Shown here one piece after another: positions 40,737-43,443 of a stretch of 64,000 nt of DNA. The translations under genes were made by a program, and so were the position numbers. The notes under the pieces were generated by a model, which saw nothing but the letters and a program-made list of their open reading frames with translations, did not search any database and had not been told where the DNA came from. Within the stretch, counting starts at the first letter, position 1, and every line of letters starts with the position of its first letter. Source of the DNA: an uncultured Granulosicoccaceae bacterium (GTDB lineage: Bacteria > Pseudomonadota > Gammaproteobacteria > Granulosicoccales > Granulosicoccaceae); assembly GCA_938003855.1 (NCBI GenBank), contig CALKXD010000049.1, positions 1-64,000 of the forward strand. Reading direction: 5' to 3'.

Positions 40737-41396
40737 ATGGCAGGACTACTACGGCGGTTAAAAAACGTGATCAGTGCAGAGGCGCACGATATCATCGACA
40801 GCCACGAATCGCCTGATCGGATCGCACGGCAGCTGGTTAGAGAAGCCACTGACAAAGTAGCCGCTGCGCAGAAGCTGACGATCAATGCGGTTGCCAGTGA
40901 AAAGCAACTCGCACAGCAACTTAAAGATCACTCAGAGAAGGCCGCAAAGGCGCAGTCCATTGCCGCCAGAGCGCTTAGCCATCAGGATGAAGTCGGTGCC
41001 CGTCGCGGGCTCGAAGATAAGCTTCATCATCAGAAGCTGGTAGATACACTAACACCGCAACTCGCGAGCGCAAGGTCTAACAGTGACAGCCTGAAGAAGC
41101 AGCTGCTATCGCTTCAGCAGCAGCTGAACACCTTAAAGACCGAGCAACTGGCTATTGAGGCCCGCTTCAACGGTGCCAAAGCCACCGGAAAAATAGATCA
41201 GATGAGTGCTGATCTGGCTATGGCAGACGACACAGACAGTCGTTTACAGCGCGCCAATTCCATGGTGTCTGTCATGGAAGCGCGTAATCAGGCGGTAGCA
41301 GAAGTCAATGCGGTCACCCATCCCGATGCCAGCATGGATAGTAACGCTGATCTGGAGATGGAAATGGAAAACCTGCGCAAGCAAGTCGGCGGGTAG
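40737..41396 (+). CDS. PspA/IM30 family membrane-stress protein
   Basis: 219 residues from the ATG at 40737 with a strong GGAGGGG site. The N-terminal amphipathic helix and start of helix 1 (GLLRRLKNVISAEAHDIIDSHESPD) match PspA; nearly the whole protein is coiled-coil (KQLLSLQQQLNTLKTEQLAIEARFN), ending in an acidic tail. PspA proteins form scaffolds that bind and mend stressed inner membrane. No PspF, PspB or PspC is nearby; instead three small membrane proteins of unknown function follow in the same direction, which suggests a different partner set. Confidence 0.87.
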   Translation: MAGLLRRLKNVISAEAHDIIDSHESPDRIARQLVREATDKVAAAQKLTINAVASEKQLAQQLKDHSEKAAKAQSIAARALSHQDEVGARRGLEDKLHHQKLVDTLTPQLASARSNSDSLKKQLLSLQQQLNTLKTEQLAIEARFNGAKATGKIDQMSADLAMADDTDSRLQRANSMVSVMEARNQAVAEVNAVTHPDASMDSNADLEMEMENLRKQVGG

Positions 41397-41668
41397 ACCG
41401 ACTGCGTCATCGGGACGGCTTTTGCCATCAGCGCAAGACCGAAGCGTCGGTTGGACGGCAAAACATGCCCGCTGCAGGGGCGGGCTCAGTGGCTGCCCTG
41501 TGCGGTAGGATTGCGGGGTGTGCTGAATATATCGCTTGGCGGTAGCTGTCCTGCAAACCGGGCGCTCACGCCGTTGTGGCGACCACGCCAAACCTGAAGC
41601 ACCTGCGTCGGCTCGCTGCTAAGTCGGGCCGGTCATCATGCAATGCTAAGGCAGTAACGGAGACGTTT

Positions 41669-42013
41669 ATGGATAACAGGCACCGTTTTATCGTCGGCGG
41701 GTTATTCCTGTGTCACGGGATGGTTCGTGTCGGACTGGGGTTTATGATACTAGCCGCTCATACAGAATTGAATTTCAGTGCCGTGATGATACTGTTTGCC
41801 ATGGCCGTCCCGTCGCTTTTCGGTGGCTACAACCTTCTCGCTGGTAACGCTTCGGCACACAGCATTTTGTCCATTGCAGCGGTGGTTAATCTGTTTGACT
41901 TTCCGTTTGGCACGGTGCTGGCGGTCTATTATTACTGGTTCTGGAAATATCAGTGTGCCGCGCCACACCCCTTCAAACACAACTCCGCGTCAAACACCGC
42001 GGTGTCAGGGTAG
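41669..42013 (+). CDS. Small multi-pass membrane protein, unknown function
   Basis: 114 residues from the ATG at 41669 (GGAG upstream). Three or four hydrophobic segments can be seen: FIVGGLFLCHGMVRVGLGFMI, FSAVMILFAMAVPSLFGG, SILSIAAVVNLFDF and FGTVLAVYYYWFW (given separately and in part). The polar tail is cytoplasmic or periplasmic. I recognise no family. It lies 272 bases after pspA and six bases before the first of two paralogous single-pass proteins, with which it is surely co-transcribed. Confidence 0.7.
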   Translation: MDNRHRFIVGGLFLCHGMVRVGLGFMILAAHTELNFSAVMILFAMAVPSLFGGYNLLAGNASAHSILSIAAVVNLFDFPFGTVLAVYYYWFWKYQCAAPHPFKHNSASNTAVSG

Positions 42014-42019
42014 CGCAAC

Positions 42020-42688
42020 ATGCCTGTCTCGGAAAACTCAGGCTCGCTGTTGCACGAAGAGCTGGTAGCTCGTGTGGCGGCGCTCGATGGTAAGCAAAGC
42101 ATCATCGACGGCAACCGGAAAACACTGGCGGCAACAGTCGAGGCGTTGGCTGAATGCACCACTGTTGATCGGACGGCAATTGAGGCAATTGCCGATCAGC
42201 TGTCGGTGCAATCCCGGTTTGTAGGTAATAACCAGTTATCCACTGAACAACAGCGAAAGCTTGCGAAAAAAACACGTCTGGCGAAGTACATCGCCATTGC
42301 CGCTGTCGTTTTGTTTTCCCTGAGTATGTTGAAGTGGCTTAACGTAAACAGCACCCTGAAAGCGGTGCTGCACGATATCTCGTCGGTGCAGAGTCGTACC
42401 GCAGATTTTCGTCTTCGCACGGGGCGCTACCCGCACGGCTTCGAGATGATTGGTTATTCTAGCGGTGCGCCGCAATTTCCTACTGTTCAAGCCATGGAGA
42501 TGGGGCCACAGGGACAACTGCTGATAAGTACCGCCGGCTTTTTCGGTAGCCAGGTGCTATTAACTCCGGTGGCCTCAAATGATGGTTGGTCGACGTGGCA
42601 GTGTAGTACCAATGCAAGCTGGCTGTTTACCATCAGCGGCTGGTTATGTGAGTATCAATCATCTATGCAGTTCAGCCATCTAAAGTGA
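42020..42688 (+). CDS. Single-pass membrane protein with pilin-like periplasmic domain, paralogue 1
   Basis: 222 residues, no family recognised. A helical cytoplasmic domain (1-85) contains ALAECTTVDRTAIEAIADQL; the basic KLAKKTRLAK precedes one membrane segment (YIAIAAVVLFSLSMLKWL), giving an N-in topology. The periplasmic part starts with a helix, then RTGRYPHGFEM, and ends with two cysteines, CSTNASWLF ... WLCEY, a spacing like the disulfide loop of type IV pilins. The next gene is a paralogue with the same layout. It is not a true prepilin, since the membrane helix is internal and there is no leader-peptidase site. Confidence 0.7.
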   Translation: MPVSENSGSLLHEELVARVAALDGKQSIIDGNRKTLAATVEALAECTTVDRTAIEAIADQLSVQSRFVGNNQLSTEQQRKLAKKTRLAKYIAIAAVVLFSLSMLKWLNVNSTLKAVLHDISSVQSRTADFRLRTGRYPHGFEMIGYSSGAPQFPTVQAMEMGPQGQLLISTAGFFGSQVLLTPVASNDGWSTWQCSTNASWLFTISGWLCEYQSSMQFSHLK

Positions 42689-42738
42689 CTACAGCGTGAG
42701 TCGCTCTAATTTTTTGCAGGTCGATAACAGAGTCAGAG

Positions 42739-43443
42739 ATGGCAAAGCTTCAACAAACGTTGTGCGAAAAAGTTCTTGAGCAAGAGCAATGCGATGAGCA
42801 GAATCGTCAGGTACGGGATCGGATTGATGCGGTAGGCAGTGCATTGCTTGAGACTACCTCACTCAACCGCCGGCAAATCAATGCCGTCGTCGTTAACCTG
42901 CAGGAAGAAGCGGCGACGCTTTCGGGCAGTGTTAACCCGCCACTATTCAAGCGGCCGTCGATTAATCCGCAAATATTGCGTATCGTTGGCTATATTGCAC
43001 TTGGGTTGCTGGCATACAGTGCGTTCAAATCGGCGCAAATAAACACCCTTAAGCTTGAGCAATCCTATAACACGTCACAACACTCCCGCATCGATTTGCA
43101 GATTGGTGTCTCCAGATTCAGAGGCATGGCAGGGAGCATCTATCAAAATTTCTATAAGCAGCACAAAAAGTTTCCGGACACAGTAGACCTGATTAGCGGT
43201 GGCGATGGTACTGGCGGGTTGCAATATACGTCAACAGTTGTCGACAGGGTCCAGTTGTCGGGTAACGGCAATATCAGACTCGAACTAACCGAATCGTATG
43301 GCTATAACCGCTGGGTAGAGCTGACGCCACGTTTGCAGGATCACCCGTTGTCAGTGGTAGTGAATTTCGACTGCCGCTCAAACGCCGAGAACAACCTATT
43401 GCATAACAACGGCCTATACTGGTGCGAGTATTCACCTGACTGA
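42739..43443 (+). CDS. Single-pass membrane protein with pilin-like periplasmic domain, paralogue 2
   Basis: 234 residues. Its cytoplasmic helical domain carries ALLETTSLNRRQINAVVVNL, which aligns residue by residue with the equivalent stretch of the preceding protein. One membrane segment (ILRIVGYIALGLLAYSAF) follows, then a periplasmic domain with KKFPDTVDLISGGDG and a C-terminal cysteine pair, FDCRSNAEN ... LYWCEY. The shared (L/W)CEY ending and the cytoplasmic motif show tandem duplication and divergence. The 50-base spacing implies one transcript. The function is unknown; PspA context suggests envelope sensing or repair. Confidence 0.7.
   Translation: MAKLQQTLCEKVLEQEQCDEQNRQVRDRIDAVGSALLETTSLNRRQINAVVVNLQEEAATLSGSVNPPLFKRPSINPQILRIVGYIALGLLAYSAFKSAQINTLKLEQSYNTSQHSRIDLQIGVSRFRGMAGSIYQNFYKQHKKFPDTVDLISGGDGTGGLQYTSTVVDRVQLSGNGNIRLELTESYGYNRWVELTPRLQDHPLSVVVNFDCRSNAENNLLHNNGLYWCEYSPD

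Follow-up and report, generated by a model that had tools for sequence, protein, structure and literature searches.

An earlier note on this DNA described a PspA homologue followed by membrane proteins with pilin-like domains and proposed that they form a PspA-linked system, which raises the question of what these proteins are and whether they have a functional connection with PspA. The window (the whole stretch of DNA that was analysed, 64,000 nucleotides) was subjected to ORF calling, and four ORFs on the + strand span positions 40737-43443, in agreement with the earlier description of a PspA homologue, a small multi-pass protein and two proteins of common layout and motifs. The first encodes a divergent homologue of PspA/IM30 of the ESCRT-III superfamily (219 aa, 40737-41396), recognized by its match to PF04012; the second encodes a small membrane protein of 114 aa (41669-42013) with three hydrophobic segments in the hydropathy profile and no family in Pfam/NCBIfam scans, referred to here as the three-helix protein; and the last two encode p3 (222 aa, 42020-42688) and p4 (234 aa, 42739-43443). 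A gap of 272 bp separates pspA from the three-helix gene, and 6 bp separate the three-helix gene from p3. Between p3 and p4, a consensus scan gave weak evidence of a terminator-like hairpin with a T-run on the + strand (42684-42711).

The two proteins p3 and p4 have the same architecture: 80-90 cytoplasmic residues are followed by a single membrane segment and then by a periplasmic domain with a cysteine pair at its end. In p3, the cytoplasmic part (42020-42280), mainly helical according to a low-confidence prediction, contains ALAECTTVDRTAIEAI (residues 42-57, 42143-42190) and is followed by a membrane helix starting at residue 88 (42281-42343) and a head (42350-42655) with the paired cysteines C195/C210 in a WQC...LCEY arrangement. 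The cytoplasmic part of p4 (42739-42972), predicted to be mainly helical with similarly low confidence, contains ALLETTSLNRRQINAV (residues 35-50, 42841-42888), which is identical to the p3 stretch at 7/16 positions; its membrane helix starts at residue 79 (42973-43029) and its head (43051-43431) carries C212/C229 in an FDC...WCEY arrangement. Neither helix is of the prepilin type. The membrane segment of p3 is strongly hydrophobic (Kyte-Doolittle 1.95) and that of p4 is weaker (1.52), with K/R counts on the N-terminal versus C-terminal side of 5 versus 1 in p3 and 2 versus 1 in p4. Judged by hydropathy and charge bias, both proteins are probably single-pass with the N terminus in the cytoplasm, and the C-terminal cysteine pair of each may form a disulfide. 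Compared over their full length, p3 and p4 are 22% identical, a score equalled by 2/1000 shuffles (0.2%), so the relationship is real but weak, and their status as distant paralogues is supported. The earlier reading of the two as tandem, single-pass paralogues thus holds.

Scans of Pfam and NCBIfam, with PspB, PspC and LiaF among the families, gave no match for p3, p4 or the three-helix protein, which bears out the earlier observation that none of them matches PspB, PspC, PspD or LiaF. For the three-helix protein, only a marginal match, with stops, was detected elsewhere in 48 genomes of the family. Single-sequence AlphaFold2 models reached a pLDDT of 45 for p3 and 39 for p4 and were unusable; Foldseek with the low-pLDDT p3 model returned no E below 0.001, and a sequence search against solved structures returned chance-level matches only. 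No relatives were found in plasmid records queried with p4 or in phage records queried with p3.

The heads alone gave no match to PF00114 (Pilin) up to E 10, short of the family cut-off, and an HMM built directly from true pilins did not find p3 or p4. The link to pilins therefore runs through intermediates and profile-profile comparison. A weak p4 match in a sister species enabled a first profile (A1) with three rows of heads. The sister-species gene (L008, 4972-5476) encodes a secreted pilin-head protein and has an apparent frameshift between the signal-peptide part and the head. Among the 48 family genomes, A1 matched L068 and L069, both heads that lack a cytoplasmic part, L068 being truncated by a contig end and L069 being secreted. 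It also matched the membrane-anchored proteins L070 and L071 and seven proteins composed of a membrane helix, a head and long repeats (L072-L077 and L079). Two of these seven, L075 and L073, scored 36.9 and 32.2 bits against PF00114 over the head stretch (cut-off 22), and both contain ankyrin repeats.

An independent profile was then built from nine relatives (L070, L071, L072-L077 and L079), with p3 and p4 left out. Searched against the six-frame window and the PspA loci, it detected only p3 (E 2.6e-6) and p4 (E 2.9e-6) besides copies of its own genes, and the score of p3 or p4 was equalled by 0/20000 shuffles of either. In hhalign, five heads compared with 29 true pilins gave a probability of 93% and an E of 5e-7, with 0/60 column shuffles as high. 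A further hhalign comparison with a mixed ankyrin set was not relied on, as 1/60 column shuffles with the two-row query gave an outlying score (140 vs 61). A seven-row profile (A2) searched class-wide matched L199, a DUF4124-Pilin protein that itself exceeds the PF00114 cut-off, with an E of 8e-12, and also reached ordinary prepilins, M48-peptidase-pilin proteins and multi-pass-pilin proteins, the M48-type and multi-pass descriptions being read from sequence. Taken together, the results with A1, the independent profile, hhalign and A2 indicate that the p3 and p4 heads are divergent pilin-type domains, and the pilin-like character ascribed to them earlier is confirmed. They resemble the PF00114 globular domain in the helix end, the P/Y-P turn, the GxxxI strand, the LTP strand and the WxC...C loop, but differ from PF00114 pilins in falling below the family cut-off, in lacking a prepilin leader and in having a cytoplasmic domain.

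The explanation that we favor, and regard as reasonably probable, is that p3 and p4 are lineage-specific (Granulosicoccaceae-like), duplicated bitopic inner-membrane proteins that carry a degenerate pilin-type head and act as envelope-facing receptors or scaffolds. Each would have a helical region in the cytoplasm and a single N-in membrane helix. The head on the periplasmic side would be a degenerate version of the globular domain of type IV pilins, comprising a helix that continues the membrane helix, a beta meander and, at the C terminus, a disulfide loop. The head may bind something in the periplasm, and the helix and cytoplasmic part may pass on or anchor that interaction. A receptor or scaffold role is most likely in view of this predicted anatomy, and the duplication suggests that p3 and p4 could form a hetero-pair.

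The distribution of the cluster bears on whether PspA is part of this picture. Among the genomes searched (the 48 family genomes included), the cluster is known from one genome only. Full-length p3 had no relative in the other genomes of the family, p4 was absent from all 368 other class genomes sampled, and a scan of the genome contigs with a query that joined p4, p3 and the three-helix protein yielded no relatives. The M19 dipeptidase gene downstream has counterparts with 68-83% identity in genomes named uncultured Granulosicoccaceae, and the pspA cluster was absent upstream of it in both relatives with upstream sequence (L118, 80%; L120, 68%). That related MAGs hold the dipeptidase orthologue without the cluster, and that sister species hold no full-length relatives of the cluster genes, is consistent with p3, p4 and the three-helix gene being lineage-specific genes that landed by chance beside an extra copy of pspA, with no common function. 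Against this reading, all genes lie on the same strand and are tightly packed, and the base composition and GC3 of the cluster match those of the neighboring genes, so there is no sign of a recent foreign origin. We give such a chance adjacency somewhat less than an even chance of being correct; it is compatible with the favored identity of p3 and p4 as lineage-specific, pilin-headed membrane proteins.

A pilin head within approximately 1.5 kb of PspA was found at 0/47 other PspA places, three of which fall below Pfam's cut-off. One pilin-profile match near PspA (L052, E 0.015) was discarded as a low-complexity reverse-frame reading. The relatives of the heads adjoin genes other than pspA, in two genera a hybrid histidine kinase and a ChaN-like protein. 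The earlier note had named, beforehand, homologues lying mostly away from pspA as the finding that would speak against its proposal; this is what was found for the head domain, since its relatives sit beside other genes, and there were no full-length orthologues to judge by. A conserved PspA-associated system requires a pspA neighborhood that recurs in independent genomes, and no such recurrence was observed. With the head relatives away from pspA, no pilin head at the other PspA places and the cluster in a single genome, the proposed PspA-linked system is not supported, and a functional link of p3 and p4 with PspA, which adjacency in one genome suggests, is doubtful.

The PspA of the window belongs to the PspA/IM30 family (PF04012, 92 bits, 5.5e-26, cut-off 33.9, profile positions 1-206 of 220), and its score against NCBIfam TIGR02977, the equivalog of the classical phage shock PspA, was 60.9 bits, short of the 242.95 bits needed. 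The closest relatives sampled share 30-35% identity with it, and their neighboring genes are unrelated to the cluster; within the 48 family genomes, the nearest was one weak match only. A further PspA-like gene elsewhere in its own genome is 22% identical to it over part of the length. The window PspA is not the PspA-like gene found family-wide but an additional paralogue.

This extra paralogue, together with same-strand, directly adjacent genes and the 6-bp gap between the three-helix gene and p3, would fit an envelope-stress module formed by PspA with p3, p4 and the three-helix protein, in which the heads monitor the periplasm and the helices in the cytoplasm recruit or release PspA, replacing PspB/PspC. 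The phage secretin pIV is known to induce the Psp response (PMC3128695), and for that reason a pilus-related sensor for PspA would make sense. Small membrane proteins likewise stand beside a pspA-family gene in the psp operon (PspB/PspC) and the lia operon (LiaI/LiaF), but p3, p4 and the three-helix protein have no sequence match to these, and the cluster has neither PspF nor LiaRS. Nor does the cluster contain any other regulator gene, and a single operon is not evident, given the gap after pspA and the terminator-like site before p4. These features, the occurrence in one genome, the absence of a pilin head at the other PspA places and the different neighbors of the nearest PspA relatives argue against such a module, which we consider unlikely. 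If the link to PspA were true, it would reveal a new kind of envelope sensor for PspA and establish a connection between pilin-type domains and the PSP response.

Less probable again is a PSP variant specific to this lineage, with two pilin-headed sensors that have replaced PspB/PspC and tie the recruitment of PspA to the state of a pilus or secretion machinery. No study linking PspA to pilin-type partners was found in the open-access literature searched, and the main text of the PSP-partner survey by Ravi et al. (2024; PMC11237479) does not refer to any partner of pilin type.

Two other PspA neighborhoods were observed in the course of the searches. A family-wide trio consists of a divergently transcribed Cro/C1-type HTH gene, a second PspA-like gene and a gene for a protein of approximately 450-500 aa with 10-13 membrane segments (L009, 4742-7695, G000:C109; also L013, L015, L018, L020, L021, L022, L025 and L028); the multi-membrane-segment protein in L009 has no Pfam match. 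Because it recurs across the family, this trio is more likely than the cluster in the window to represent a genuine PSP-like system. In L010, L011 and L012, a conserved protein of approximately 200 aa, PspA and a three-helix membrane protein are followed by a protein resembling band-7, and this neighborhood looks like the known PspA/band-7 kind.

Finally, the possibility that a type IV pilus or a type II secretion filament incorporates p3 and p4 as unusual minor pilins or pseudopilins is remote: both proteins have pilin-type heads with a C-terminal cysteine loop and their own genome encodes a true prepilin with GFTLIELM (G000:C73), but in contrast to that prepilin neither contains a GFTLxE cleavage motif, each begins with a cytoplasmic part of 80-90 residues that in p3 ends in a strongly basic pre-membrane stretch, and no pilus genes adjoin them. 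With a cytoplasmic domain in place of the prepilin signal, p3 and p4 cannot be ordinary pilins.

The favored bitopic, pilin-headed proteins p3 and p4 belong to a broad theme of pilin heads on non-pilin membrane or secreted proteins. The class-wide A2 matches indicate that such heads are not rare. The fusions of pilin heads to ankyrin, DUF4124, M48 peptidase and multi-pass proteins resemble p3 and p4 in that a membrane-anchored or secreted protein bears this head, but their partner domains differ and none was seen beside pspA. In Gammaproteobacteria, many membrane proteins that are not pilins thus reuse the pilin head, some in forms too divergent for Pfam to recognize, and this holds even without a link to PspA.

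In several species of the family, proteins of approximately 470-640 residues have a membrane helix and a Pilin-type head followed by long (ankyrin) repeats (L072-L076 and L079, and L077); if the head lies in the periplasm, so would the ankyrin part. Heads fused to apparent M48-type peptidases (L203 and L217), in multi-pass proteins (L211, L215, L218 and L219) and with DUF4124 (L199 and L200) were found in several gammaproteobacterial families. In two genera of the family, the gene for a membrane-anchored pilin-headed protein is convergent with that of a hybrid histidine kinase, and a ChaN-like protein is encoded nearby (L082, 5494-8011; L083, 4383-6943).
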